Position numbers and translations under genes: made by a program
From: an uncultured Eubacteriales bacterium
Lineage (GTDB): Bacteria; Bacillota; Clostridia; Christensenellales; Aristaeellaceae
DNA: 64,000 bases
Direction of reading: 5' to 3'
Assembly: GCA_902761755.1 (NCBI GenBank)
Contig: CACWLP010000004.1
Span: 18,428 to 82,427, forward strand
In this document: positions 23,461 through 36,734 of the stretch, piece by piece
Position numbering within the stretch: the stretch's first letter is position 1
How the letters are laid out: the number at the start of each line of letters is the position of its first letter
Notes under the pieces: model-generated
Databases searched by the model: none
Seen by the model: only the letters and a program-made list of their open reading frames with translations
What the model was told of the DNA's origin: nothing

Positions 23461-26400
23461 TCACGCTCCTTTCAGATAAGCCAGGTATTCGTCGGATATC
23501 ACCGTTTTGAACCGGGGCAGGTATTCGTCGAAGGCCCGCAGGATCTCCCCCGCTTTTTTCGAGCCTGTGGCCCGCTCGTGCATCTGCAACAGACGCTGCA
23601 GCTCGCCCGCCTGTTCCGGGGGAACGGGATACATTTTCACATGCCCGGGATTCAATCGGTCTTTCAGCGTCCCGTCCCCGTCCAGCACCCAGGCGACGCC
23701 GCCGCTCATGCCCGCGGCGAAGTTGTCCCCCACCTCGCCCAGCACCGCCACCCGGCCGCCGGTCATATACTCGCAGCCATGATCGCCCAGGCCTTCCACC
23801 ACCGCCCAGGCGCCGGAATTGCGCACGGCGAAGCGTTCCCCTGCCCGTCCCGCAATAAAGGCGTACCCGCCGGTGGCGCCATAAAGGGCCACGTTGCCGA
23901 TGAGGGTATCCTCCGGCTTCCACACGCTGTCTACCGGCGGGCAGACGGCGACCGTGCCGCCGGACAGGCCCTTGCCCAGGTAATCGTTGGCCACGCCGTA
24001 CAGCGTGATCTCCTGGCCCGCGGGCAGGAACGCGCCGAAGGACTGCCCGCCGCAGCCCTGGGCCTGGATGCGCCTTTCGCCCTTCAGCATGGCGCCGAAA
24101 GCCCGGTCGGTGGTGGTGAGGTGCACATGATTCTGGAAGAGCCTCGCGTCGGTGCGCTCGCTCAAATGGAAATCGTGCTTCGCTTCCCGCTGGAAATGGG
24201 TGTTCCTGGCAAAGCCGATCAGGGGGGTCAGATCTATTTTGGCGTCCGGTTTCATTTTCAGCAGATCGCTGCGGCCCACCAGCTCGCTCACCGTCCGCGC
24301 GCCCAGCTTCGCCATGATTTCCCGCAGCTGCTCCGCAATAAAGAGCATGAACCGCTCCACGTATTCCGGCTTTCCCATGAACCGCTTGCGCAGCGCGGGG
24401 TTCTGGGTGGCGATGCCGAAGGGGCACGTGCCCAGATGGCACACCCGCATCATCCGGCAGCCCATCGTCACCAGCGGCGCGGTGGCGAACCCGAATTCCT
24501 CCGCCCCCAGCAGCAGGGCCACCATCACGTCGTGCCCGGTCATCAGCTTTCCGTCAGTTTCCAGCGTAACCTTCTGACGCAGACGATTTCTGCACAGCAC
24601 CTGATGGGCTTCCGCCAGGCCGATCTCCCAGGGCAGGCCCGCGTGATGCACGGAGCTCTGCGGGGCGGCGCCGGTGCCGCCTTCGCCGCCGGAGATCAGG
24701 ATGCCGCCCGCCCCGGCCTTCGCAACGCCGCTGGCGATGGTGCCGACCCCCGTGGAAGAAACCAGCTTTACGGTAATCTTGGCCTGCTCGTTGGCGCACT
24801 GCAGATCGTAGATCAATTCGGCCAGGTCTTCGATGGAATAGATATCGTGGTGGGGCGGCGGGGAGATCAGGGAGATGCCCGGGGTGGAGCAGCGGGTCTT
24901 CGCCACGCTGTCCGTCACTTTCGCCCCCGGCAGGTGTCCGCCCTCGCCGGGCTTGGCGCCCTGAGCCATTTTGATCTGGATTTCTTTCGCGGAAAGCAGG
25001 TATTCCCTTGTTACGCCGAAGCGGCCTGAGGCCACCTGCTTGATGGCGGAATTGAGGTTCGTTCCGAAGCGCTCGGGCAGTTCGCCGCCTTCGCCGCTGT
25101 TGCTTTTGCCGCCCAGATGATTCATGGCCTGGGCCATGCATTCGTGGGCTTCCTGGGAGATGGAGCCGTAGCTCATGGCCCCGGTGCGAAAGCGCCGGAC
25201 GATTTCGGCGGCGCTTTCCACCTCCGAAAGGGGGATTTCCCGGCAGGCGTCGTAATCGAAGGTCAGCATGGAACGGATGGTGCGGGGGCCTTCGTTTTCC
25301 ACCCGGGCGGCGTAACGGTCGAACAGGTCCTTGCTGTCCGTCCACACCGCCTGCTGCAAAAGGTGAATGGTTTCCGGGGAATACAGATGCTCCTCCGCCC
25401 CTTCGCCCGTGCGCAGCCGGTGGATGCCCACGCTGGGCAGCCCTTTCCCCAGGGGATCGGCGAAGGCCGCGGCATGATGGAAACGGCTGTCCGCCTCCAC
25501 CCGGTTCAGGTCCGTGCCGCCCAGGGTGCAGGGCGTATTGGTGAAGTACTTTTCAACGAACGGCTCGTCCAGGCCCACGATCTCAAACAGCTGGGCGCTC
25601 TGGTAGGCCTGCAGGGTGGAAACGCCCATCTTGGAGGCGATTTTCAGGACGCCCGCGGTGAGGGCTTTGTTGTAATCCCGGACGGCGTCCTCCGCGTTCT
25701 TTTGGATCTGCCCCGCTTCGCACAGGGCGCGGATGGTGCCGTGGGCCAGATAAGGGGTCACCGCCCGGGCGCCGAAGCCGATCAGCAGCGCCATCTGGTG
25801 CACGTCCCGGGGCTCGCCGCTTTCCAGGATCACGGAGACCGCCGTGCGCTTCTTGATGCGGATCAGATGCTGCTCCAGGCCGGACACCGCCAACAGCGAA
25901 GGAATGGCCAGCCGGTTTTCATCCATGCCCTGATCGGACAGGATCAGGATGTTGATCTTGTCCTTGCAGGCCTGATCGCAGGCAGCGAAAAATGCAGTCA
26001 GGGCGTCCCGCAGGGAGCCGTTCTTTTCATACAGCAAAGAAATTGTGCGGACGGAAAAGGCGGGATGATCGATCCGGCGGATGCGCTCCAGCTCCTCCTC
26101 CGTCAGGATCGGGGAGGGAAGCTCCAGTACGGTGCAGTTGTCGGGATCGTGGGAAAGCAGGTTGCCATCGTCGCCGATATAGATGGAGCAGTCGGTTTTG
26201 ATTTCTTCCCGCAGGGCGTCGATGGGCGGGTTGGTCACCTGTGCGAAGCGCTGCCTGAAATAATCGAAGAGGCTGGGATGGGTTTTGCTCAGCGCCGCCA
26301 GGGGCTCATCCGCACCCATGGAAACGATGGGCTCCGCGCCGTTTTGCGCCATGGGCAGAAGGATGTCGTGCTCATCCTCCCAGGTGTAATGGAATGCTTT

Positions 26401-27786
26401 GCACAGCTGGGTTCGCCGCGCTTCGTCCGGTTTATTTGGCTGTTCCTGCGCCTGGGGCAGATCGTTCAGGGAAATCAGCTGCCGCATCCAGTCCGGGTAC
26501 GGGCGCTGCTGTGCGTAGGCGGTTTTCAGTGCTTCGCTTTCCTTGAGCGCGCCGGTTTTCAGATCGGCTTCCAGCACGTCCCCGCCCATGAGCTTCCACC
26601 GGCGCACGATATGGGCGTTTTCCTCGAACAGCACTCCGGCCTCCGAGGAAAGGATCAGCCGCCCGTCGTCGGTCAGGGCGCAGCGAAGGGGCCGCAAGCC
26701 GTTGCGGTCCAGGGATGCGCACACCTTTTCCCCATCGGAATACAGGATGGCCGCCGGCCCGTCCCAGGGCTCCATCATGGTGGCGTAATAGCGGTACAGA
26801 TCCCGCCAGGGAGTTTCCTTTTTCGCTCCCTGCCAGGGCTCCGGCAGCAGGATCATCCCCGCCAGGGACAGGGGAAAACCGTTCATGGCCAGGAATTCCA
26901 GGGTGTTATCCAGCATCTGGCTGTCGCTGCCGCCTTCCGTCACCACCGGCAGCACCCGCCGCATCTCCTCGCCCATGACGGGAGAGCGCATGGTTTCCTC
27001 CCGGGCCTTCATGCGGTCGTGATTGCCCCGGATGGTATTGATTTCCCCGTTGTGCAGAAGCATCCGCTGGGGATGCGCTTTGCTCCAGGAGGGGAAGGTG
27101 TTGGTGGAAAAGCGGGAATGCACCATGGCCATCCGGCTTACGTAGCGCACGTCCTGCAGGTCGTCGTAAAAGGAGCGGAGCTGGCTCACCAGCATCATGC
27201 CCTTATAAACGATGGTGCGGCAGGACAGGGAGCAGATATAGGTGTCCGTATCCTGCTTTTCAAAGGCGCGGCGCAGCACGTACAGCCGCCGGTCGAAATC
27301 CAATCCGGGGGCGGCGCCGTCCGGCCGTTTCAGGAAGCACTGGCGGATGCGGGGCATTGTGCGCCTGGCGCCCGCGCCCAGCTGCGCCGGATGGCAGGGC
27401 ACATTGCGCCAGCCCAGCACCTTGATCCCTTCCGACGCCGCTAACTGCTCAAAAATGCGGCGGGCGCTGTCCGCGCCCACCTCGTCCTCCGGCAAAAAGA
27501 ACATCCCCACGCCGTAATCGCCCGGGTTTCCCAGGGCGATTCCTTCCTCCTGCGCCCAGGCGGAAAAAAGGCTGTGGGGAAGCTGCGTCATGATCCCGAC
27601 CCCGTCGCCGGTGGTGCCCAGCGCGTCGCTGCCCGCCCGATGGGCCAGCCTTTCCACAATGGAAAGCGCCTGATCCACCGTCCGGTGGGTGGCCTTGCCG
27701 CTCAGATCGGCAATAGCCCCCACGCCGCAGCTTTCGTGCTCCATGTCTTCGCGATAAAGGGGATACTGTGGATCCCGCATGGTCAT
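23461..27786 (-). CDS. gltB: Glutamate synthase, large (alpha) subunit
   Basis: This enzyme of 1,441 residues makes two glutamates from glutamine and 2-oxoglutarate. I start at ATG 27786, which overlaps the stop of the ANTAR gene (ATGA) behind an AAGGGGG site; the open frame further upstream is a shadow of that gene. The N-terminal amidotransferase nucleophile is Cys in MEHESCGVG, exposed after propeptide removal. The central and FMN-binding synthase domains include GEGGELPERFG, PGEGGHLPGAKV and STGVGTIASGVAKAGA, and the glutamate-synthase beta-helix (GGTVAVCPP, GATGGYAFI, DHGCEYMTGG) closes the protein. The coupling ANTAR-gltB-gltD suggests nitrogen-responsive control. Confidence 0.97.
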   Translation of the reverse strand: MTMRDPQYPLYREDMEHESCGVGAIADLSGKATHRTVDQALSIVERLAHRAGSDALGTTGDGVGIMTQLPHSLFSAWAQEEGIALGNPGDYGVGMFFLPEDEVGADSARRIFEQLAASEGIKVLGWRNVPCHPAQLGAGARRTMPRIRQCFLKRPDGAAPGLDFDRRLYVLRRAFEKQDTDTYICSLSCRTIVYKGMMLVSQLRSFYDDLQDVRYVSRMAMVHSRFSTNTFPSWSKAHPQRMLLHNGEINTIRGNHDRMKAREETMRSPVMGEEMRRVLPVVTEGGSDSQMLDNTLEFLAMNGFPLSLAGMILLPEPWQGAKKETPWRDLYRYYATMMEPWDGPAAILYSDGEKVCASLDRNGLRPLRCALTDDGRLILSSEAGVLFEENAHIVRRWKLMGGDVLEADLKTGALKESEALKTAYAQQRPYPDWMRQLISLNDLPQAQEQPNKPDEARRTQLCKAFHYTWEDEHDILLPMAQNGAEPIVSMGADEPLAALSKTHPSLFDYFRQRFAQVTNPPIDALREEIKTDCSIYIGDDGNLLSHDPDNCTVLELPSPILTEEELERIRRIDHPAFSVRTISLLYEKNGSLRDALTAFFAACDQACKDKINILILSDQGMDENRLAIPSLLAVSGLEQHLIRIKKRTAVSVILESGEPRDVHQMALLIGFGARAVTPYLAHGTIRALCEAGQIQKNAEDAVRDYNKALTAGVLKIASKMGVSTLQAYQSAQLFEIVGLDEPFVEKYFTNTPCTLGGTDLNRVEADSRFHHAAAFADPLGKGLPSVGIHRLRTGEGAEEHLYSPETIHLLQQAVWTDSKDLFDRYAARVENEGPRTIRSMLTFDYDACREIPLSEVESAAEIVRRFRTGAMSYGSISQEAHECMAQAMNHLGGKSNSGEGGELPERFGTNLNSAIKQVASGRFGVTREYLLSAKEIQIKMAQGAKPGEGGHLPGAKVTDSVAKTRCSTPGISLISPPPHHDIYSIEDLAELIYDLQCANEQAKITVKLVSSTGVGTIASGVAKAGAGGILISGGEGGTGAAPQSSVHHAGLPWEIGLAEAHQVLCRNRLRQKVTLETDGKLMTGHDVMVALLLGAEEFGFATAPLVTMGCRMMRVCHLGTCPFGIATQNPALRKRFMGKPEYVERFMLFIAEQLREIMAKLGARTVSELVGRSDLLKMKPDAKIDLTPLIGFARNTHFQREAKHDFHLSERTDARLFQNHVHLTTTDRAFGAMLKGERRIQAQGCGGQSFGAFLPAGQEITLYGVANDYLGKGLSGGTVAVCPPVDSVWKPEDTLIGNVALYGATGGYAFIAGRAGERFAVRNSGAWAVVEGLGDHGCEYMTGGRVAVLGEVGDNFAAGMSGGVAWVLDGDGTLKDRLNPGHVKMYPVPPEQAGELQRLLQMHERATGSKKAGEILRAFDEYLPRFKTVISDEYLAYLKGA

Positions 27787-28319
27787 TCGTTCGTCCCCCT
27801 TGACTCCTTGATGATTTGTGCGGCGTACTCCGCCATCTTCATGCCGTGGTTCATGGCGTACTGCTGCAGGGCACGGTGCGCTTCCGGCTCGGTGAGGCCC
27901 CGGCTCTGCATCAGCAGACGCTTGGCCTGCTCCACCGCCTGCTTTTCCGTGCCCATTCGCTTGGGCAGGCGCATCTGGTGCAGCTGGGTGAGCATTTCCA
28001 CCGCGCCGATCACCGCCTGGCTGGAAGCCGGAAGCGCCAGGCGGAAGATTTCCGGCGCTTCGCAGCTTTCCAGCAATGCGGGCTTTCCGATCAGCAGGAT
28101 CTGAATACGGTCCCCGTAGTCCCATTGCAGATCGTCCGGCTTGCAGTCCGGCAGGCTGCCCAGCATGATCACCACGCCGTCGTCGCATTCATTGACGGTC
28201 CTTCGCAGCTCGCTGCCTGCTCCACAGCATCGGAAAACGGAATAGCCGGAGGAGGAGAGCAGGCGGGAAAGCTGTTCCCGGCTTACTTCCGATGCGCCGG
28301 CGATCACGATTCTTGCCAT
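27783..28319 (-). CDS. ANTAR-domain antiterminator with degenerate receiver
   Basis: This is a 178-residue regulator. Residues 1-110 have a receiver-like fold (MARIVIAGASE), but the acidic pair near the N-terminus is absent and the phospho-acceptor position (VVIMLGSLPD) carries no Asp, so phosphorylation is unlikely. Residues about 122-172 form the ANTAR RNA-binding helices (EKQAVEQAKRLLMQSRGLTE, EAHRALQQYAMNHGMKMAEY). ANTAR proteins bind nascent RNA and prevent termination in nitrogen and amide operons (NasR, AmiR, EutV). The gene sits between glnA (40 nt gap) and gltB (4-nt overlap). Terminator-like leaders precede glnA, asnB and amt nearby, which are obvious but unproven targets. Confidence 0.9.
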   Translation of the reverse strand: MARIVIAGASEVSREQLSRLLSSSGYSVFRCCGAGSELRRTVNECDDGVVIMLGSLPDCKPDDLQWDYGDRIQILLIGKPALLESCEAPEIFRLALPASSQAVIGAVEMLTQLHQMRLPKRMGTEKQAVEQAKRLLMQSRGLTEPEAHRALQQYAMNHGMKMAEYAAQIIKESRGTNE

Positions 28320-28359: not shown

Positions 28360-29691
28360 TCAGTACATCACGATGTACCGGTCGATCTCCCATTTGCTCA
28401 CGTGGGTGCGGTAGGCGTCCCATTCCTTTTCCTTGCCTTCCACATACTGGGACAGCACGTGCTCGCCCAGGGCGGCGCAGATCACCTCGTCCGCTTTCAG
28501 GCATTCCACCGCTTCCTTCAGCGTGCCGGGCAGGGATTTGATGCCCTTCTTCTCCCGGGTGGGGCCGTCCATGGCGAAGATGTTTTCGGTGATCTCATCC
28601 GGCGGCGTCAGGCCCTTTTCGATGCCGTCCAGGCCGGCTGCCAGGCAAACCGCCATGTTCAAATACGGGTTGCAGCTGGGATCGGGGCAGCGCAGCTCCA
28701 CCCGCGTGCCCATGCCCCGGGCGGCGGGAATGCGGATCAGGGCCGAGCGGTTGCTGGCGCTCCAGGCCAGATAGCAGGGGGCTTCATAGCCCGGCACCAG
28801 GCGCTTGTAGCTGTTCACCAAAGGATTCGTAATGGCCGCCATGCCGCGGACGTGGCCCAGGATGCCGGCGATGAAGGAATAGGCTTCCTTGGAAAGCCCC
28901 CGCTTGTCGGCGGGATCGGCAAACACGTTTTTCCCGTCCTTGAACAGGCTCATGTTGGTGTGCATGCCGCTGCCGTTGATGCCGAACACGGGCTTGGGCA
29001 TGAAGGTGGCGTGCAGGCCGTTTTTCTGGGCCAGGGTCTTGACCGCCAGCTTGAAGGTCATGATATTGTCGGCAGCGGTGAGGGCGTCGGTATACTTGAA
29101 GTCGATCTCATGCTGCCCGGCGGCCACCTCATGATGGCTGGCCTCGATCTCGAAGCCCATCTGCTCCAGGCTCATGCAGATCTCCCGCCGGGTGCTTTCG
29201 CCATGATCCAGGGGGCCCAGGTCGAAGTAACCCGCTTCGTCCCCGGTGGTGGTGGTGGGCCGGCCCTGCTCATCGGTCTGGAAGAGGAAGAATTCCATTT
29301 CCGGGCCTACGTTGAAGGAATAGCCCATGTCCGCCGCCTTTTTCAGCACCTTCTTCAGCACGCCCCGGGGATCGCCCGCAAAGGGGGTGCCGTCCGGGTT
29401 GTACACGTCGCAGATCAGCCGCGCCACCTTGCCGTGCTGCGGCCGCCAGGGCAGGATGGTGAAGGTGCTCAGATCGGGGCGCAGATACTGGTCGCTTTCG
29501 TTGATGCGCACAAAGCCTTCGATGCTGCTGCCGTCGATCATGATCTCGTTGTTCACGGCCTTTTCGATCTGGCTGGCAGTGATGGCCACGTTTTTCAGCT
29601 GGCCGAAAATATCGGTGAACTGCATGCGGATGAACTCCACGTCGTCTTCCCGTACCATGCGGATGATGTCTTCCTTGCTGTACTTGCTCAT
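28360..29691 (-). CDS. glnA: Glutamine synthetase, type I
   Basis: This is a 443-residue enzyme that makes glutamine from glutamate, ammonia and ATP. The length fits the shorter GSI-alpha form of Gram-positive bacteria. Hallmarks are [19 protein letters not shown] near residues 52-70, the metal and substrate strand [24 protein letters not shown], the [17 protein letters not shown] loop and [20 protein letters not shown]. The ATG follows AAAGGAGG. It heads the operon glnA-ANTAR-gltB-gltD. A consensus promoter and an intrinsic-terminator-like hairpin lie between it and the divergent asnB, so expression probably depends on antitermination. Confidence 0.98.
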
Positions 29692-29711: not shown

Positions 29712-29753
29712 AATTAAAAAGCGCAAGGGAACCGGATGAATCGGCTCCCTTGC
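29712..29753 (-). promoter_or_regulatory. Leader attenuator (terminator-like hairpin) of glnA
   Basis: On the minus strand GCAAGGGAGCCG pairs with CGGTTCCCTTGC (12 bp, one G-U) around a 7-base loop and is followed by GCTTTTT. The stem starts about 3-4 nt after the predicted transcription start and ends just before the glnA ribosome site. As glnA is the first gene, this cannot be the terminator of an upstream gene. Confidence 0.75.
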
Positions 29754-29762
29754 CATGGATGC

Positions 29763-29791
29763 AGAATAGCACCCCGCGGGCCGCTTGTCAA
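29763..29791 (-). promoter_or_regulatory. Sigma-A promoter of glnA
   Basis: On the minus strand TTGACA (29786-29791) and TATTCT (29763-29768) are 17 bp apart. Predicted start is near 29757. Confidence 0.85.
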
Positions 29792-29844
29792 TCCGGTGGG
29801 CTGTTTTTTTCCTGTTTTTGCGTTTTCTGAGAAACCGCGGCGCA

Positions 29845-29873
29845 TTGACAGCGGACGGCGAACCTGCTATGAT
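29845..29873 (+). promoter_or_regulatory. Sigma-A promoter of asnB
   Basis: TTGACA (29845-29850) and TATGAT (29868-29873) are 17 bp apart, divergent from the glnA promoter 53 bp away. Predicted start is near 29880. Confidence 0.88.
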
Positions 29874-29882
29874 ACGTCCATC

Positions 29883-29921
29883 GGGACAAGGGCGTCCGCA
29901 CGGATGCCCTGTCTCTTTTTT
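29883..29921 (+). promoter_or_regulatory. Leader attenuator (terminator-like hairpin) of asnB
   Basis: GGGACA(A)GGGCGTCC pairs with GGATGCCCTGTCTC (one bulged A, two G-U pairs, 4-base loop) and is followed by TTTTTT. The stem begins about 3 nt after the predicted transcription start and ends before the GGAGGGAGG ribosome site. No plus-strand gene lies upstream that it could terminate. Confidence 0.75.
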
Positions 29922-29944
29922 ATTTGGAGGGAGGAATCGGAAAG

Positions 29945-31525
29945 ATGTGCTCCATCTTTGGATTGACCAGTACGAAAGTGCCCATGGAACAAATGCGCGC
30001 CTGCTTTGACCGCACTGTTTCCCGGGGGCCGGACCTGAGCCGGTTTGAAAAGATCCCCGGCGGATACCTGGGCTTTCACCGCCTGGCCATCATGGGCCTG
30101 GACGACCGGGGCATGCAGCCCTTCCATCTGGGGCTGGACGCGGTGGTGTGCAACGGCGAGCTTTACGGCTTCCGCCCGCTGCGGGACCGGCTGCTGGCCA
30201 AGTACGAATTGCACAGCCAGTCCGACTGCGAGATATTGCTTCCTCTGTATCACGAATACGGCGTGGAAATGTTCAAGACCCTGGATGCGGAATTCGCCCT
30301 GATCCTGTGGGACGGAACGCAAAAGAAGCTCATCGCCGCCCGGGACCCCATCGGCATCCGGCCCCTGTATTACGGCAGACTGCCCGACGGCGAATGGGCC
30401 TTCGCCAGCGAGCCCAAGAACCTGATGGGCCTGTGCGATGAAATATTGCCCTTTCCCCCGGGTCATTACTGGATGGACGGGCGTTTCGTCCAGTACGCCG
30501 ACCCCGCCTACGTGGGTTACTTCACCATGAAAACCGAGGAGGAGGTGTGCCCGAAGCTCCGCCGGCTGCTGATGGACGGCGTGCACAAGCGCCTGGACGC
30601 CGACGCACCGGTGGGTTTCCTGCTCTCCGGCGGGCTGGATTCCTCCCTGGTGTGCGCCATCGCCCAGAAGATGCTGAACAAGCCCATCCGCACCTTTGCC
30701 ATCGGCATGGACGTGGACGCCATCGACCTGAAATACGCCCGCATCGTTGCGGATTACATCGGCAGCGACCATACGGAGGTGATCATTTCCGAACAGGATG
30801 TGCTGGACGCCCTGCCCACGGTGGTGGAGCTGCTGGGCACCTGGGACATCACCACCATCCGCGCCTCCATCGGCATGTATCTGGTGTGCAAATGGATCCA
30901 CGAGCACACAGATGTCCGGGTGCTGCTGACGGGAGAAATTTCCGACGAATTATTCGGCTACAAGTATACCGATTTCGCCCCTTCTGCCGCCGCCTTCCAG
31001 GAGGAGGCGGAAAAGCGCATCCGGGAACTGCACGTGTACGACGTGCTCCGGGCCGACCGCTGCATTTCCGTCAACAGCCTGGAGGCCCGCGTTCCTTTCG
31101 GCGATCTCAAATTCGTCCGCTACGCCATGAGCATCGATCCGGAGCTGAAAATGAACCGGCACAACATGGGCAAGTACCTGATCCGCAAGGCCTTTGCCGA
31201 CGATCATATCCTCCCCGACGAGATCCTCTGGCGGCAGAAGGCGGCTTTCTCCGACGCCGTAGGCCACTCCATGGTGAACGATCTGAAAGCCCTGGCCGAA
31301 AAGACCTATACCGACAAGGAATTTGAGGAAAAAGCGGCGAAATATGATTACTGCCGCCCCTTCACCAAGGAAAGCCTGCTGTACCGGGAGCTGTTCGAGC
31401 AGTTCTATCCCGGCCAGGCCCGAATGATCCCCGACTTCTGGATGCCCAACAAAACCTGGCCCGGCTGCGACGTGGACGACCCCTCCGCCCGGGTGCTGGC
31501 CAACTACGGGGCCAGCGGCGTGTGA
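29945..31525 (+). CDS. asnB: Asparagine synthase (glutamine-hydrolysing), AsnB type
   Basis: This is a 526-residue cytosolic enzyme that converts aspartate, glutamine and ATP to asparagine. I start at ATG 29945 so that Cys2 (MCSIFGL) becomes the N-terminal amidotransferase nucleophile, preceded by GGAGGGAGG. The glutaminase domain includes ARDPIGIRPLYYG. The synthetase domain (from about 210) has the PP-loop LLSGGLDSSLVCAIA, then LLTGEISDELFGYKY and VNSLEARVPFGDLKFV. Length is near that of enterobacterial AsnB. It is divergent from glnA, and its leader has the same promoter-hairpin-SD arrangement. Confidence 0.96.
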   Translation: MCSIFGLTSTKVPMEQMRACFDRTVSRGPDLSRFEKIPGGYLGFHRLAIMGLDDRGMQPFHLGLDAVVCNGELYGFRPLRDRLLAKYELHSQSDCEILLPLYHEYGVEMFKTLDAEFALILWDGTQKKLIAARDPIGIRPLYYGRLPDGEWAFASEPKNLMGLCDEILPFPPGHYWMDGRFVQYADPAYVGYFTMKTEEEVCPKLRRLLMDGVHKRLDADAPVGFLLSGGLDSSLVCAIAQKMLNKPIRTFAIGMDVDAIDLKYARIVADYIGSDHTEVIISEQDVLDALPTVVELLGTWDITTIRASIGMYLVCKWIHEHTDVRVLLTGEISDELFGYKYTDFAPSAAAFQEEAEKRIRELHVYDVLRADRCISVNSLEARVPFGDLKFVRYAMSIDPELKMNRHNMGKYLIRKAFADDHILPDEILWRQKAAFSDAVGHSMVNDLKALAEKTYTDKEFEEKAAKYDYCRPFTKESLLYRELFEQFYPGQARMIPDFWMPNKTWPGCDVDDPSARVLANYGASGV

Positions 31526-31539
31526 CGGGGAGACGCGTC

Positions 31540-31560
31540 CTTTCTCTGGGTCAGAGAAAG
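31540..31560. other. Perfect hairpin after asnB
   Basis: CTTTCTCTG-GGT-CAGAGAAAG is a perfect 9-bp inverted repeat 15 nt after the asnB stop, without a U-tract. It could be a weak 3' end or a REP-like palindrome at the border of the AT-richer stretch that follows. Confidence 0.4.
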
Positions 31561-31639
31561 TACCAAAGAGACCGATCAAGGGGATTTTGGGCCTGAGGAC
31601 TGAACAGCAAACCGGGATTCTGTTTTCGAGGTACTTGAG

Positions 31640-32074
31640 ATGGGCAATCCTTTCGTCTATTATCGCATCGACTCGCTGTCAGATCTGAAGCGCTTTCCTT
31701 CCTGCTCTGTCAGCAGTCTTGACTGGCATGCAGACTTGGCAATGATTCAAAGGTTTTATGCGCGTTTCAATCATGCCGTCAATCCTGACGAGTTCGACCG
31801 GCATGTAGGAAGTCCGCTGGCGATCATACAGAGTGGCGATATTGTCAGCTTTGCAATTCCTTTGTCTTTTCGGGAAGGAGAAATCGAAATAGGTGGCGTC
31901 GCAACTGTTTCGGATATGCAAAACAAAGGCTGCTGTAAAGCGCTCATATCGGAGATGGCTTTCAGGTTTCTGGAACAAGGAAAAGCGGCGACGCTGACAA
32001 CAGAAAAAGACAACCTCCCCATGCGAAGAGCCGCTGAATGGATCGGTATGAAGCTGTTATCGAAAGATGCATGA
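31640..32074 (+). CDS. GNAT-family N-acetyltransferase
   Basis: This is a 144-residue single-domain protein with the acetyl-CoA fold. The central strand IEIGGVATVSDMQNKGCCKALI carries the pyrophosphate-binding region equivalent to Q/RxxGxG/A (here QNKGCC), followed by the helix SEMAFRFLEQGK and the strand AATLTTEKDNLPMRRAAEWIGM typical of small-molecule acetyltransferases. The N-terminus is short for the family, so it may be a variant or a partial copy. Base composition is visibly lower in GC than the neighbouring asnB and guaA, and so is the next gene. The substrate cannot be told. Confidence 0.75.
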   Translation: MGNPFVYYRIDSLSDLKRFPSCSVSSLDWHADLAMIQRFYARFNHAVNPDEFDRHVGSPLAIIQSGDIVSFAIPLSFREGEIEIGGVATVSDMQNKGCCKALISEMAFRFLEQGKAATLTTEKDNLPMRRAAEWIGMKLLSKDA

Positions 32075-32089
32075 TACGAAGGGAGTAAA

Positions 32090-33208
32090 ATGGACATGCG
32101 GAATGAATATGGAAAAAAGCGCAAAAACAGACATATGAAGCGTAGGATTATTGCCCTTGTTCTGATCTGCGCCTTCTTATTCTCATGCGGAACGGATGCA
32201 TATGCTTCTTTTGCAGATCCGGAGAGTCGGGATCAGAAAACACCAGCGGTTTCTGAGGACTGCCTGCATCCTGTTTCTTCCATTGAGTTCATGAGAGAAT
32301 GGATTAGCGAGATCAATCAAACGGACGAGCTTATGGAGCAGCAGGGGTTTCATGCTGTAAGAAAGTACCTTCCGATGTCATTTGTGGAGGACGATGCGCC
32401 TTACACCCCGATTGAGAAGATAGCAGCCGAAGGCAGCGATGTTCACGCTACCGTGGTAATGAGAATTGAAGAAGCAGACAGTAACGAATCTTCCGTTTTT
32501 TCAATGACAGCTGTTCTGCTGGCGAACGGAAAACCAGTCGATTTCCGCCTGAATGAAAACAGCAGCCAGGAAGGAATCCTGACCGTTTCTCTGAATTCCA
32601 ATCAGGATTACATCCTGTCCCTCAGTGCGGAAGATCTTCCGGCAGCCGCAGGAGAGAATAAACTGATACTGGTTGTTTTCGGATACTGCAAGGATCAGGA
32701 TTTCTATCTGGATCCGCAGAGCATCACGGGTTCCTTCCTGTGCGCCGAAAAAAATAACGGTGTTTCCATCGTCCCGTGCCCGGAAAATGAAATTGATATC
32801 GTGACGATACAGAACAAAAATGAACTGGGGCAGTATGCCAGGATGGATTTCTTATCCGATGGAGAAATGACGGATTTTCAGTCGGACCATTACGGTAATT
32901 ATCTGATGACATCAAAGCCGGATCCTACTCTGCATTTTTACATGGATAATATGAATAATCCGGGACAATATGATAACAGTAAAGGAATCATGTTCATGCT
33001 GATTGACGGCGAACTGATGCCGGTATGGAACGGAAGCTGTTTTGGGGAAATCTCAATGCGCAAAAGCGATCTGGTCAAAGTGATCCGGTTGGAGAGCGGC
33101 TTTCCGGCAGGTGAACAGCATCATGTATACTGGTATTATCAGGAGACGGAGGGATTTTCAGACTGGCCGGCCAGTGCGTCATACCGGATGAAGATAAAAA
33201 TCGAATGA
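32090..33208 (+). CDS. Secreted protein of unknown function
   Basis: This is a 372-residue protein starting at ATG 32090 behind AAGGGAG, 15 nt after the GNAT stop. A basic N-terminus and hydrophobic segment (RRIIALVLICAFLFSCGTDAYA) form an export signal. Cleavage may be after AYA, or the Cys in LFSC could be lipidated, although Phe at -2 is unusual for a lipobox. The rest is acidic, rich in beta-strand-like sequence (HATVVMRIEEADS, LTVSLNSNQDYILSLSAED) and ends without a wall anchor. I recognise no family. AT-richer composition, shared with the GNAT gene, suggests that the two arrived together between asnB and guaA. Confidence 0.7.
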   Translation: MDMRNEYGKKRKNRHMKRRIIALVLICAFLFSCGTDAYASFADPESRDQKTPAVSEDCLHPVSSIEFMREWISEINQTDELMEQQGFHAVRKYLPMSFVEDDAPYTPIEKIAAEGSDVHATVVMRIEEADSNESSVFSMTAVLLANGKPVDFRLNENSSQEGILTVSLNSNQDYILSLSAEDLPAAAGENKLILVVFGYCKDQDFYLDPQSITGSFLCAEKNNGVSIVPCPENEIDIVTIQNKNELGQYARMDFLSDGEMTDFQSDHYGNYLMTSKPDPTLHFYMDNMNNPGQYDNSKGIMFMLIDGELMPVWNGSCFGEISMRKSDLVKVIRLESGFPAGEQHHVYWYYQETEGFSDWPASASYRMKIKIE

Positions 33209-33341
33209 CTCTGTTGATCAGAATACGTTGCTAAGCGTGTATATGATGAAAAGCGCTTAGAATGAGCCGGGAAACCCGGAAGTTCATCTGACAAATTCCA
33301 GTTTGTCTTTCCAAATGCCAGTCAGCAAAGGAGCCATTTTC

Positions 33342-34886
33342 ATGCCTGATCCTCAAAAAATCATCATCCTGGATTTCGGCGGGCAGTACACCCAATTGAT
33401 CGCCCGGCGGGTGCGGGAAAACCGTGTGTATTCCGAAGTTGTGCCCTGGAGCCTTTCCGCGGTGGAAATCAAAAAGCGCCAGCCCGTGGGCGTGATCCTT
33501 TCCGGCGGGCCCTCCAGCGTGTGCGACCCGGACGCGCCGAAGTGCGACCCGGCGATCTATGATCTGGGCGTGCCGGTGCTGGGCATCTGCTATGGGATGC
33601 AGCTTACCGCCCATCTGCTGGGCGGCCGGGTGGAGCGCGCCGCAGAAAGGGAGTACGGCCGCGTCGCCGTGCGGATGAAGGAAAGCGCCGGCCTGCTGGA
33701 CGGCATGAAGCCGCACAGCGCCTGCTGGATGAGCCATACCTGGCAGGTGTGCCAGTGTCCTCCCGGCTTCCGTCCCATTGCGGAAACGGAAAACTGCCCC
33801 GTGGCCGCCATGGCGGACGTGGAGAAACAAATTTACGGCGTGCAGTTCCATCCCGAAGTGACCCACACGGAGGAAGGAAAGCGGCTATTGCATAACTTCC
33901 TGTTCGGCATTTGCCATTGCGCGGGCGACTGGACCATGGACGCCTACGCCGAAACCGCCATTGGGCAAATCCGGGAGACCGTAGGAGAAACCGGAACGGT
34001 CCTGCTGGCCCTGTCCGGCGGGGTGGATTCCTCGGTGGCTGCGGCGCTGATTTACCGGGCCATCGGCAATCGCCTCACCTGCGTGTTCGTGGATCACGGG
34101 CTCTTGCGCAAGGGCGAAAGCGAGCAGGTGTGCCACGTGTTCAGCCACCTCTTCCCGGTGCGCTTCATCCGGGCGGACGCCGCGGACAAATTCTTTGCCG
34201 ATCTCAAGGGCGTCACGGAGCCGGAACAGAAGCGCCATATCATCGGCCGGGATTTCATCGAAGTGTTCCGGGAAGAAGCGCGGAAGCTGGGCAGGCTGGA
34301 TTATTTCGCCCAGGGCACTATTTACCCGGATGTGATCGAAAGCGGCCAGGGCACGAATGCGGCGGTGATCAAGAGCCATCACAACGTGGGCGGGCTGCCC
34401 AAAGAGCTGGGCTTTACCCAGCTCATCGAGCCCCTGCGCATGCTGTTCAAGGATGAGGTGCGCGCCCTGGGCGAAGCCCTGGGCCTCCCCCACGATCTGG
34501 TCTGGCGTCAGCCCTTCCCCGGCCCCGGCATCGCTATCCGCGTGCTGGGCGAAGTGACGCCGGAAAAGGCGCGTATCGTGCGGGAGAGCGACGCGATTTT
34601 CCGGGAGGAAGTCGCCAAGGCCGGGCTGGACCAAACGATCAGCCAATACTTTACCGTGCTCACCAACGCCCATACGGTGGGCGTCATGGGCGATGAGCGC
34701 ACCTACGATTACGTGATCGCCCTGCGCGCCGTCACCACCGACGATTTCATGACAGCCGACTGGGCGCGCCTGCCCTACGATCTCATTGCCACGGTCTCCG
34801 CCCGGATCGTCAACGAGGTGCCCCACGCCAGCCGCGTGGTGCTGGATGTGACCACCAAACCCCCCGCCTCGGTGGAGTGGGAATAG
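33342..34886 (+). CDS. guaA: GMP synthase (glutamine-hydrolysing)
   Basis: This is a 514-residue enzyme that converts XMP to GMP with glutamine and ATP. The class I amidotransferase domain (1-190) has [18 protein letters not shown], the nucleophile in GICYGMQ and [10 protein letters not shown]. The ATP-pyrophosphatase domain has the PP-loop [17 protein letters not shown]. The C-terminal dimerisation domain has [14 protein letters not shown] and ends [13 protein letters not shown], the canonical terminus. The start is ATG 33342, preceded by AAAGGAG; an upstream TTG in the same frame lacks a ribosome site. It is yet another glutamine-using enzyme in this cluster. Confidence 0.98.
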
Positions 34887-34912
34887 CGATTGTTTTTTGA
34901 CTGTATTCCCCC

Positions 34913-34941
34913 TTGACAAACCGTTCATTACCGTTTACAAT
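34913..34941 (+). promoter_or_regulatory. Sigma-A promoter of amt
   Basis: TTGACA (34913-34918) and TACAAT (34936-34941) are 17 bp apart, 27 nt after the guaA stop. Predicted start is near 34948. Confidence 0.85.
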
Positions 34942-34947
34942 GCCTCC

Positions 34948-35002
34948 AACCAGCAAGGCGCAAGGGTGCGTGTTACGCACCCGGCGCCTTTTTTGTTGGT
35001 TA
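34948..35002 (+). promoter_or_regulatory. Leader attenuator (terminator-like hairpin) of amt
   Basis: The core stem is GGCGC/GCGCC (34957-34961 with 34984-34988) continued by GGGTGCGT/ACGCACCC around a 3-base loop, followed by TTTTTT. The flanks AACCAGCAA and TTGTTGGTT can pair outside it, so the whole leader from the predicted start can fold. It lies downstream of the amt promoter, between it and the ribosome site. It could also serve read-through from guaA. Confidence 0.7.
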
Positions 35003-35027: not shown

Positions 35028-36734
35028 ATGACGTACTCTCCCGCAAACACCATCTGGGTCCTTCTGGGCGCCGCCCTGGTATTCTTCATGCAGGCGGGCT
35101 TCGCCATGTGCGAGGCAGGCTTCACCCGGGCCAAAAACACGGGCAACATCCTGATGAAGAACCTGATGGATTTCTGCATCGGCACGCCCCTGTACTGGCT
35201 GTTCGGCTTTGGCATCATGTTCGGCACGGGCACGGCGCTCTTCGGCTGGATCGACCCCTTCATCATGGGAGATTACAGCGAGGTGCTGCGTGACATCGGC
35301 GTGCCGCTGTGGGCCTACGCCATTTTCCAGACGGTATTCTGCGCCACCTCCGCCACCATCGTCTCCGGGGCCATGGCGGAGCGCACCAAATTCTCCGCTT
35401 ACTGCCTGTACTCCGCCGCCATTTCCCTGTTCATCTATCCCGTCAGCGGCCACTGGATCTGGGGCGGCGGCTGGCTGGCGGAAATGGGCTTCCATGATTT
35501 CGCCGGCTCCACCGCCGTGCACATGGTGGGCGGCGTGTGCGCCCTGGTCGGGGCGAAGATCCTGGGCCCGCGCATCGGCAAGTACGGCAAGGACGGAAAG
35601 CCCAAGGCCATCCTGGGCCACAACCTGTCCATCGCCGCCCTGGGCGTGTTCATCCTGTGGTTCTGCTGGTTCGGCTTCAACGGCGCGTCCACCTTGCACA
35701 TGGACAGCGACGAACAGATCGGCTCCGCCAGCCTGGTATTCTTCAACACCAACCTGGCGGCGGCTGTCGCCACCCTGGTGACCATGCTCTTTACCTGGTT
35801 GCGTTACGGCAAGCCCGACGTTTCCATGACCTTCAACGCAGCCCTGGCCGGTCTGGTGGGCATCACGGCGGGCTGCGACGCGGTAAACCCCTTCGGCGCT
35901 GCCGTCATCGGCGCCTGCTGCGGCTTTGCCGTGGTGCTGGCGGTGGGGTTCTTTGATAAGATCGTGAAGATCGACGACCCGGTGGGCGCCATTTCCGTAC
36001 ACGGTGTCTGCGGCGCGCTGGGCACCATCCTCACCGGCTTCTTCGCCACCGGGATCAGCACCATGAAGGGCGTTTTCTACGGCGGCGGATTCCACTTCCT
36101 GGGCGTGCAGTGCCTGGGCGTTGTCAGCGTGATCGCCTGGACGGGTATCGTTATTACCGCCGTGTTCCTGCTGATCAAGAAAACCATCGGGCTGCGGGCC
36201 GACGCCGCGGACGAGGTCATGGGCCTGGATCGGTCCGAGCACGGCCTGCCTACTGCCTACGCCGGCTACGCCATGATGCCGGAGAGCACCTATGAAGACG
36301 CAGAGCCCACGGTGATTGCTTCCGCCGCGCCCGAAACGGAGGAAGCGCCCCGCAAGGCCAAGGAGAAAGCGCCCGACGCGCCGGTTTATACCCGGGTGCA
36401 GATCATCTGTCGTCCCGGCAGCCTGGAAGGCCTGAAAGCGGCTATGAACAAAATCGGCATCACGGGCATGACCGTCACCAACGTAATGGGCTACGGCGCG
36501 CAGAAGGGCAAGCCGGAATACTACCGCGGCACGCCCGTGGAAGTGACGCTGCTTCCCAAGGTGCAGGTGGATATCGTGGTCAGTAAGGTGCCCGTCCGTC
36601 AGGTGATCGATACCGCCCGCGCCGTGCTCCATACCGGGCATATCGGCGACGGCAAGATCTTCGTATACGACGTGGAAAACGTGGTGCGCGTCCGCACCGG
36701 CGAGGAGGGCTACGACGCCCTGCAGACCGAATAA
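35028..36734 (+). CDS. amt: Ammonium transporter fused to a C-terminal PII (GlnB-like) domain
   Basis: This is a 568-residue membrane protein starting at ATG 35028 behind GGAAGTGAG. Residues 1-400 are a standard Amt channel with about eleven membrane helices. Signatures are FFMQAGFAMCEAGFTRAKN, the family motif DFAGSTAVHMVGG and ISVHGVCGALGTILTG with the pore histidines. An Ala/Glu/Pro/Lys-rich linker (about 415-450) leads to a complete PII-like domain (about 453-568) with VQIICRPGSLEGLKAAMNKI, a T-loop region containing YGAQKGKPEYYRG and a final GDGKIFVYDVENVVRVRTGE strand. PII proteins normally block Amt channels in trans, so here the sensor is tethered to its target. No separate glnB or glnK is visible in the window. 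Confidence 0.95.
   Translation: MTYSPANTIWVLLGAALVFFMQAGFAMCEAGFTRAKNTGNILMKNLMDFCIGTPLYWLFGFGIMFGTGTALFGWIDPFIMGDYSEVLRDIGVPLWAYAIFQTVFCATSATIVSGAMAERTKFSAYCLYSAAISLFIYPVSGHWIWGGGWLAEMGFHDFAGSTAVHMVGGVCALVGAKILGPRIGKYGKDGKPKAILGHNLSIAALGVFILWFCWFGFNGASTLHMDSDEQIGSASLVFFNTNLAAAVATLVTMLFTWLRYGKPDVSMTFNAALAGLVGITAGCDAVNPFGAAVIGACCGFAVVLAVGFFDKIVKIDDPVGAISVHGVCGALGTILTGFFATGISTMKGVFYGGGFHFLGVQCLGVVSVIAWTGIVITAVFLLIKKTIGLRADAADEVMGLDRSEHGLPTAYAGYAMMPESTYEDAEPTVIASAAPETEEAPRKAKEKAPDAPVYTRVQIICRPGSLEGLKAAMNKIGITGMTVTNVMGYGAQKGKPEYYRGTPVEVTLLPKVQVDIVVSKVPVRQVIDTARAVLHTGHIGDGKIFVYDVENVVRVRTGEEGYDALQTE

Follow-up and report, generated by a model that had tools for sequence, protein, structure and literature searches.

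Short promoter-proximal leaders of nitrogen genes in Clostridia carry one ANTAR-type hexaloop and are predicted to act as attenuators

In the window (the whole 64,000-nt stretch of DNA analysed here), the nitrogen genes glnA, asnB and amt were found to be preceded by very short leaders, and we consider it likely that these are attenuators of one regulon, switched through a single hexaloop by the ANTAR protein encoded after glnA. On the reverse strand, glnA (glutamine synthetase, 28360–29691; Pfam PF00120, E 1.7e-139, and PF03951) is followed by the gene of the predicted regulator, a 178-aa protein with a degenerate receiver-like domain and an ANTAR domain (27783–28319; PF03861, E 2.2e-16), and by gltB (glutamate synthase, 23461–27770; PF00310, PF04898, PF01645 and PF01493), the final gene of the run, with a tentative start (ORF open to 28188). 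The forward strand carries asnB (asparagine synthase B, 29945–31525; NF006949, E 3.9e-180) and amt, which encodes an ammonium transporter fused to a P-II domain (35028–36734; TIGR00836, E 4e-126; PF00909 and PF00543). The proposal is built on what the sequence shows: a promoter, a single hexaloop that overlaps the terminator, covariation of the hairpin, association with ANTAR genes, and nitrogen genes downstream.

In the proposed mechanism, RNA polymerase would start 1–10 nt ahead of a small hairpin with the hexaloop A1-A2-R3-G4-G5-N6. A hairpin left unbound would give way to a far more stable terminator, in which its 3′ side together with the loop pairs with RNA further downstream, and the polymerase would stop about 40–50 nt from the start. 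Under a shortage of nitrogen (probably glutamine), an ANTAR dimer would bind the hexaloop, stabilise the hairpin and block the terminator, so that glnA-ANTAR-gltB, asnB and amt-PII would be expressed. One hexaloop would do the job for which EutV-type systems need two. The actual starts, ANTAR binding, antitermination, its direction and the signal are what we infer in this scheme.

As stated in the preliminary description, all three genes have a TTGACA promoter with a 17-bp spacer, a terminator near the predicted start and then the ribosome site. The promoters are TTGACA-17-TATTCT for glnA (29763–29791, reverse strand; its place is kept in the glnA leaders of the family), TTGACA-17-TATGAT for asnB (29845–29873, forward strand) and TTGACA-17-TACAAT for amt (34913–34941, forward strand). 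With the transcription start placed by assumption 7 nt past the −10 hexamer, the terminator stems start at about +4 to +8 and the T-runs begin at +35 to +42, which agrees with the strong hairpin and T-run described earlier at 0–10 nt from the predicted start. These terminators occupy 29716–29753 for glnA (reverse strand; hairpin 29753–29723, T-run 29720–29716), 29883–29921 for asnB (T-run 29916–29921) and 34955–34994 for amt (T-run 34989–34994), the latter two on the forward strand. Folds of the leaders including the T-run had energies of −23.4, −24.4 and −27.5 kcal/mol for glnA, asnB and amt (z −4.9, −5.2 and −5.2), equalled by 0 of 200 dinucleotide shuffles for each leader. Across the region as a whole, terminator-like sites were not enriched in a simple count (16 vs. 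13.6 in shuffled sequence), and the case therefore rests on fold energies and conservation. In principle guaA, which lies upstream of amt, could use the amt terminator as well. Neither terminator of the divergent glnA and asnB, as had been pointed out, can be owned by an upstream gene. A terminator shared with an upstream gene was considered as an explanation and set aside.

No AxxGxx loop had been seen in the preliminary description; in fact each leader contains exactly one such hexaloop, overlapping the terminator, and in three of three the loop is closed by a stem of at least 3 bp and has A at position 1 and G at position 4. The hairpins are TGGC[AAGGGA]GCCG for glnA, a predicted antiterminator with covariation in relatives (29742–29755, reverse strand; −4.3 kcal/mol), GGAC[AAGGGC]GTCC for asnB (29884–29897, forward strand; −5.6 kcal/mol) and GCGC[AAGGGT]GCGT for amt (34958–34971, forward strand; −7.6 kcal/mol). 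The CAAGG noted earlier in each leader is present in all three and opens this hairpin. In shuffled 45-nt leaders a hexaloop hairpin of at least 4 bp arose by chance with frequencies of 0.034, 0.038 and 0.041 (glnA, asnB and amt). The hexaloop hairpin overlaps the left arm of the terminator, and the two structures consequently exclude each other, as folding indicated for 3/3 leaders; it is the weaker of the two. The glnA hairpin of the window is without the longer lower stem seen in relatives.

Ninety glnA loci of the family were read, 30 including the window's own and 60 hand-picked from the same list. A regular expression matched 73 leaders; after removal of two mis-anchored ones (L069 and L090), and with the promoter of L097 set by hand, promoter and hexaloop were found ahead of 71/90 glnA genes. 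The hexaloop was followed by a T-run in 70/71 and had at least three contiguous pairs beneath it in 60/71. The distance from the −10 hexamer to A1 was 11–18 nt (mode 14), and A1 and the T-run lay at median positions +9 and +41. Position 1 was A in 67/69 and position 4 was G in 69/69 distinct windows of the 73 leaders, the anchor itself demanding G4 and a purine at 1. In an alignment of 69 distinct leaders (67 glnA, asnB and amt; identical rows merged), which had been proposed earlier as a check, the hairpin was shown to covary: 79.7% of cells were paired, compared to 68.6 when shuffled and 30–45 when slid, two-sided changes were found in 67 cells vs. 23.7, and RNAalifold recovered the same 6-nt-loop hairpin without a supplied structure.

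The presence of the motif was also found to go with that of an ANTAR gene. Among the 90 glnA loci, 70 had both the motif and a nearby ANTAR gene, 19 had neither and one was discordant, its ANTAR gene lying on another contig (Fisher p 1.4e-18, with no correction for relatedness). Four genomes (G006, G054, G103 and G157) have two glnA genes, and in each of them the motif was present only at the ANTAR-side copy; G169 agrees provided that two of its contigs carry a single gene, and a contig end truncates the ANTAR-side copy of G141. These data bear on the possibility that the leaders are constitutive, with no regulator, and that the hairpins only affect initiation, the stability of the RNA or noise in read-through. 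The shortness of the leaders would suit such a role, and 5′ hairpins can stabilise RNA, but a covarying hairpin that is less stable than the terminator and cannot coexist with it argues against it, as do the sharing of the leader by genes of one pathway and its absence from glnA copies that have no ANTAR gene nearby, and we regard it as very improbable. A common attenuation of nitrogen genes by unusually short leaders, as first suggested from the window, is well supported by the comparison with relatives.

The ANTAR protein of the window is the sole ANTAR match in its own genome (73% complete). Its AF2 model (pLDDT 89.6, pTM 0.64) had EutV-RNA 6ww6 as the closest PDB match (Foldseek E 7.4e-10, TM-score 0.54), and K133, E144, H148 and M156, invariant in 16/16 aligned proteins, align with EutV K149, E160, Y164 and M172 (a numbering offset of 2 being inferred). 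Compared to EutV, R142 is replaced by K and Y164 by H. An ANTAR domain with RNA-contact residues was thus identified by PF03861, alignment and Foldseek, and the earlier naming of this protein as a candidate regulator gains support from gene linkage and from the conserved EutV contact positions. The receiver-like domain reads IMLGSLP where Rv1626 has IMDVKMP, and no phospho-acceptor Asp was found at that column in the 16 aligned proteins, which suggests that activation probably occurs through a partner protein, be it PII, glutamine synthetase or some other, and not via a kinase.

Further leaders were searched for with a hairpin-only model (R1) and a promoter-plus-hairpin model (R2). R1 proved unspecific for the own genome (10 matches at E ≤ 10, two of them asnB and glnA, amt being absent), and R2 was used instead. 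In the window R2 ranked asnB, glnA and amt, all three members of its training set, at the top (E 2.9e-8, 2.9e-7 and 0.013; next 0.12). Of 33 R2 places at E ≤ 2 in the own genome, 26 were scanned for a hexaloop hairpin of at least three pairs near the start and a T-run, and asnB, glnA, amt and L411 passed; the other seven comprised four near contig ends, among them L418, and three others. At L411 the "T-run" is directly continuous with the start codon of a galE-like gene, with no sign of a separate terminator stem; L418 leads into a tRNA, as judged by eye. From a list of R2 matches, 40 places were hand-picked (35 at E < 0.001, the rest < 0.002). Six were excluded, L196 as a glnA and L217, L231, L233, L234 and L235 because no terminator was visible by eye; three more, L219, L222 and L225, were dropped by the loop expression, yet read A1..G4. 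This left 31 leaders of other genes. A gene-blind DNA pattern of promoter and hexaloop found at least 122 sites in public genomes, site counts that are not a measure of prevalence. With ORFs called for 115/122, the genes that follow were, among the matches listed, mostly those for glutamine synthetase, ammonium transporter, glutamate dehydrogenase and glutamine-amidotransferase; two MatE, two ABC transporter and one lactate/malate dehydrogenase gene were also among them. A cultured gut isolate, Neglectibacter timonensis (L330), is one example of a carrier of the leaders. TTGAC/TANNNT at fixed spacing was kept across the family and in matches from other families, where the search partly demanded it. 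The promoter is built into R2 and into the DNA pattern, so the sets they yielded were selected for promoter proximity, and only the glnA set tested it freely.

T-runs followed the hexaloop in 3/3 window leaders, 30/31 other-gene leaders and, among the matches listed, 116/122 pattern leaders. In the listed pattern set the outer pairs −6 and −7 were above shuffles and −8 and −9 were not, the inner pairs being fixed by the pattern. A terminator-pairing metric, passed by 70/70, 3/3, 30/30 and (among the matches listed) 115/116 glnA, window, other-gene and pattern leaders, was rejected because 786/1095 shuffled controls passed as well (301/350, 14/15, 111/150 and 360/580), and fold energies and T-runs were relied on instead.

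These searches also bear on whether another RNA-binding protein, or a small-molecule sensor such as a glutamine or ammonium RNA, uses the hairpins while the ANTAR gene is a mere neighbour. One genome, G515 (97% complete, 6% contaminated), does carry the leader without an ANTAR match. Among genomes with R2 matches outside the family (E ≤ 3e-4), however, 19/20 had an ANTAR protein, compared to 196/391 in the class; ANTAR thus tracks the leader gene by gene and genome by genome, A1 and G4 of the loop are the published ANTAR signature, and the hairpin is presumably too small for a ligand pocket. Rfam gave only one tRNA above the gathering threshold in the window and no family in 14 relative loci, and a further scan gave only sub-threshold, unrelated families; glutamine riboswitch and T-box were set aside as having no Rfam match. 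We therefore think another regulator highly improbable and retain the ANTAR protein. Promoter-hugging single-hexaloop ANTAR attenuators might even be a main nitrogen control of many Clostridia, covering not just glutamine synthetases, glutamate dehydrogenase and Amt but also the enzymes that use glutamine to make purines, CTP, asparagine and amino sugars, a broader reading that we offer tentatively and with somewhat more doubt than confidence.

The number of hexaloops was compared in four leader sets (71 glnA, 3 window, 31 other-gene and 122 pattern leaders, the last among the matches listed; 227 rows, 214 distinct, the window glnA sitting in two sets). None of the leaders had a further hexaloop upstream of the first one inside the predicted transcript (0/71, 0/3, 0/31 and 0/122, respectively), and downstream second hexaloops occurred at chance level (26 vs. 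22.0 expected by shuffling). The second hairpin with a short linker that defines a dual-hexaloop ANTAR target was consequently not seen in the 227 rows. That part of the preliminary description, the lack of a two-hairpin target, stands; the different mechanism it considered is not supported, the leaders looking like an ANTAR scheme that works with one hairpin. A classical target whose first hairpin was missed, the true start being further upstream, would accord with the two hairpins of the ANTAR antiterminators tested in PMC3369931 and PMC8934654, as far as their available text describes them, and with the hexaloop-like hairpins between −35 and the main stem in 6/31 other-gene leaders (3.3 expected). 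Against this, the first hairpin would need to sit in conserved −35/−10 DNA, with TTGAC/TANNNT kept at fixed spacing in this and other families, and the −35-to-hairpin DNA of all sets held 28 such hairpins vs. 23.9 expected (7, 0, 6 and 15 vs. 8.3, 0.1, 3.3 and 12.2, the last among the matches listed); we judge it very improbable. Published observations do count against the one-hexaloop model: deletion of the first hairpin abolishes EutV control in E. faecalis (PMC3369931, available text), and in the available text of PMC8934654 EutV-type antitermination is said to need two hexaloops in tight register, the authors, who describe the EutV-RNA structure, suggesting that single ones could serve where no polymerase in the act of transcription limits the time. 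The same text leaves open why two loops are needed, since one dimer holds one loop at a time. On the broader reading offered above, the hairpin would be transcribed before any other RNA, with the stop point only about 30 nt past the loop, so that ANTAR could not be recruited by an upstream hairpin; it would need to catch the hexaloop directly on its way out of the exit channel or be pre-loaded on polymerase at the promoter.

For gut Clostridia, the leaders provide candidates for a nitrogen regulator, its RNA element and its regulon, and they amount to a compact switch of about 50 nt. A literature search (supplementary tables and most subscription papers lay outside its scope) found no paper describing them, and for "ANTAR" with "single hexaloop" it returned only PMC8934654. 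Compared with the EutV-type system of the E. faecalis eut genes, as presented in the available text of Ramesh 2012 (PMC3369931) and Walshe 2022 (PMC8934654), they are alike in AxxGxx hexaloops, a hexaloop hairpin overlapping an intrinsic terminator, an ANTAR protein with a receiver-like N-terminus, nitrogen-gene targets and largely kept contact residues. They differ in having one hexaloop instead of two, in a hairpin at about +1 with loop A1 near +9 (A29 and A53 in eutP), and in a receiver without the phospho-acceptor Asp and His in place of Tyr164. NasR/nasF and AmiR/amiE also act by ANTAR antitermination, AmiR likewise with a pseudo-receiver (PMC8934654, available text), but their targets are in the dual-hairpin seed, whereas one hairpin and a multi-operon regulon are found here. 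The ANTAR regulons predicted by Ramesh 2012 in Desulfotomaculum and others share the theme of glutamate/glutamine synthases, ammonium transporters and PII, and were found with a dual-hairpin model (PMC3369931, available text; compared here by description). The single-hexaloop leaders thus appear to represent a novel form of ANTAR antitermination that seems to be widespread, and with so large a natural set of one-loop attenuators, why EutV-type systems need two hexaloops becomes testable.

All promoters, hairpins and T-runs of the glnA, asnB and amt leaders were borne out at the places given in the preliminary description. The AxxGxx loop, which had been considered not visible, was found once in each leader, within the hexaloop hairpins TGGC[AAGGGA]GCCG (glnA), GGAC[AAGGGC]GTCC (asnB), and GCGC[AAGGGT]GCGT (amt; loops in brackets). 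The ANTAR signature is described as A at loop position 1 and G at position 4 in the published accounts (PMC8934654; PMC3369931), and the CAAGG string noted previously corresponds to the closing base of the hexaloop plus loop letters 1–4. The terminated RNAs of the three genes are predicted to be only some 40–48 nt long, and the terminator fold of each leader was much more stable than the folds of its shuffled sequences (z about −5). Predicted energies were −4 to −8 kcal/mol for the hexaloop hairpin versus −23 to −28 kcal/mol for the terminator, and the two structures share bases and are therefore mutually exclusive. An ANTAR switch is expected to be built in this way, with a weak antiterminator that must be assisted to overcome a strong terminator formed by default. 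Termination would be the default, and under nitrogen shortage the ANTAR protein would rescue transcription, a parsimonious reading since the leader genes make and import glutamine nitrogen.

A promoter+hairpin search model ranked asnB, glnA and amt, all three included in its training set, as the top three sites in the window. The same model gave 33 matches at E ≤ 2 in the genome of origin (73% complete). A hexaloop hairpin followed by a T-run was present in 4 of the 26 matches scanned there, namely asnB, glnA, amt, and locus L411, where the T-run abuts the start codon and no terminator stem was seen.

Among 200 genomes of the family, 188 contained a match, and 90 glnA upstream regions were read (30 loci returned by the search and 60 hand-picked from the list, with the start codon on the contig). 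Promoter and hexaloop were present at the same spacing in 71 of these, 70 of which also had the T-run. The promoter used was the best-scoring one, picked independently of the loop, in 70/71 leaders; that of L097 was set by hand. An alignment of leaders, as proposed previously, showed the hairpin to covary across 69 sequences (67 glnA, asnB, and amt): paired cells amounted to 79.7% compared to 68.6% in shuffled and 30–45% in slid alignments, there were 67 two-sided changes versus 23.7 in controls, and RNAalifold recovered the hairpin unaided. Loop conservation is partly due to selection, since the anchoring regex accepts only loops with G4 and with a purine as the first base; the pairing is not. 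In L136 (G008:C86), which carries another type of glutamine synthetase (46% identical), the promoter-adjacent layout was the same, with the hairpin AATGAAC[AAAGGC]GTTCATT and a terminator right arm repeating the hairpin left arm.

An ANTAR gene was located within 3 kb of 70 of the 71 motif-bearing glnA genes, the remaining genome carrying one on a different contig, and of none of the 19 glnA genes devoid of the motif (p 1.4e-18, a value inflated by relatedness). In G006, G054, G103, and G157, four genomes that each have glnA in duplicate, the motif was on the ANTAR-side copy only; G169 agrees provided that contigs C213 and C200 carry parts of a single gene, and G141 was left out as its ANTAR-side copy is truncated at the edge of a contig. 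At class level, ANTAR was detected in 11 of the 12 genomes in which the model matched versus 196 of 391 overall (p 0.006), the exception being G515 (L268; 97% complete, 6% contaminated), which had the leader and no ANTAR match.

Within the family, leaders were also found upstream of asnB, glmS, pyrG, gltB, gltD, gdhA, type III glutamine synthetase, amt, an ANTAR gene itself, and an aminotransferase (named by eye from N-terminal sequences at hand-picked sites; L213, L224, and L232 were left unnamed). Elsewhere in the order and class, outside the family, the genes behind the leader were mainly asnB, amt, and type III glutamine synthetase. A search with a DNA pattern that combined promoter and hexaloop and specified no gene yielded at least 122 matches in at least 119 stretches. 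Among the 115 listed matches with an ORF call, Pfam families, which overlap within one protein, included Gln-synt_C (53), GSIII_N (50), ammonium transporter (13), glutamate dehydrogenase dimerisation domain (13), class-I glutamine amidotransferase (9), asparagine synthase (3), and adenylosuccinate synthetase, CTP synthase and SAICAR synthetase (4 each); MatE (2), ABC transporter (2) and lactate/malate dehydrogenase (1) were off-theme. Hosts among the matches listed included Neglectibacter, Massiliimalia, Mediterraneibacter, Enterocloster, Oribacterium, and Christensenellaceae, and the same leader was found in L276 (Christensenellaceae) and L244 (the window's order), which makes it probable that this order is Christensenellales.

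In L331, from a contig titled as a Spirochaetaceae MAG, such a leader precedes an apparent CTP synthase gene, reflecting either transfer or mis-binning. Hexaloop leaders in L212 and L336 precede an apparent LL-diaminopimelate aminotransferase gene (N-terminus, by eye), off the glutamine theme. An ANTAR-type leader followed by a protein of unknown function was seen in two distant genomes, in L263 (1594–3060, + strand; C-terminal PPDK_N domain, N-terminal part resembling RecA/KaiC-type sequences by eye) and L232 (judged by N-terminus only). Within the window, region 31640–33208 between asnB and guaA encodes a GNAT acetyltransferase and a 372-aa protein without Pfam match; its G+C content is 46.9% versus 60.7% for asnB and 63.4% for guaA, and it has probably been inserted into the nitrogen cluster.

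P0001, the ANTAR protein encoded directly after glnA (178 aa), was predicted to have a receiver-like fold and a three-helix ANTAR (AF2 pLDDT 89.6, pTM 0.64), with EutV-RNA and Rv1626 as nearest folds at modest whole-chain TM-scores of about 0.55. Columns corresponding to EutV K149, E160, Y164 and M172 held invariant K, E, H and M in 16/16 aligned proteins, and the phospho-acceptor Asp was missing in all 16 (column set by alignment with Rv1626). Because this Asp is absent, control by a partner seems more likely than by a kinase, by analogy with the partner-controlled AmiR/AmiC switch (described in PMC8934654); PII, fused to amt in the window, and glutamine synthetase are candidate partners.

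The two-hairpin ANTAR target had been reported as not visible, and indeed no second hexaloop hairpin was found upstream within the predicted transcript in the glnA leaders of the family (0/71), the window's leaders (0/3), other-gene leaders (0/31) or listed pattern matches (0/122), sets that overlap (227 rows, 214 distinct leaders). Further hexaloop hairpins up to 25 nt downstream occurred at the shuffled-sequence rate (6, 0, 3, and 17 versus 6.7, 0.5, 2.7, and 12.1, respectively). Between the −35 and the main stem, which covers the case of transcription starting further upstream, 7, 0, 6, and 15 were counted versus 8.3, 0.1, 3.3, and 12.2 expected. An extra hexaloop core with T-run before the gene was present in 24 of the 122 listed pattern leaders, including L275, L281, L289, and L303; these look like repeated (tandem) single-loop attenuators.

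The Rfam search suggested in the preliminary description, covering the window and 14 relative loci, gave no family above threshold at the leaders. In the literature consulted, partly as excerpts, the single-hexaloop idea was found only as a suggestion in PMC8934654. The nitrogen theme is known for dual-hairpin ANTAR targets, and Ramesh et al. described two stem-loops in most of their matches (excerpts of PMC3369931); some of their matches may therefore overlap with the present leaders. Linker lengthening between hairpins is reported to abolish antitermination in the EutV-type system, and Walshe et al. showed that isolated hexaloops bind on their own and proposed the first as a recruitment hairpin (PMC8934654), for which the leaders predicted here have no place. 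eutP requires two hairpins with loops beginning at +29 and +53 (PMC3369931), whereas the leaders described here have one, with predicted median positions in the large sets of about +9 for loop A1 and about +41 to +44 for the T-run.
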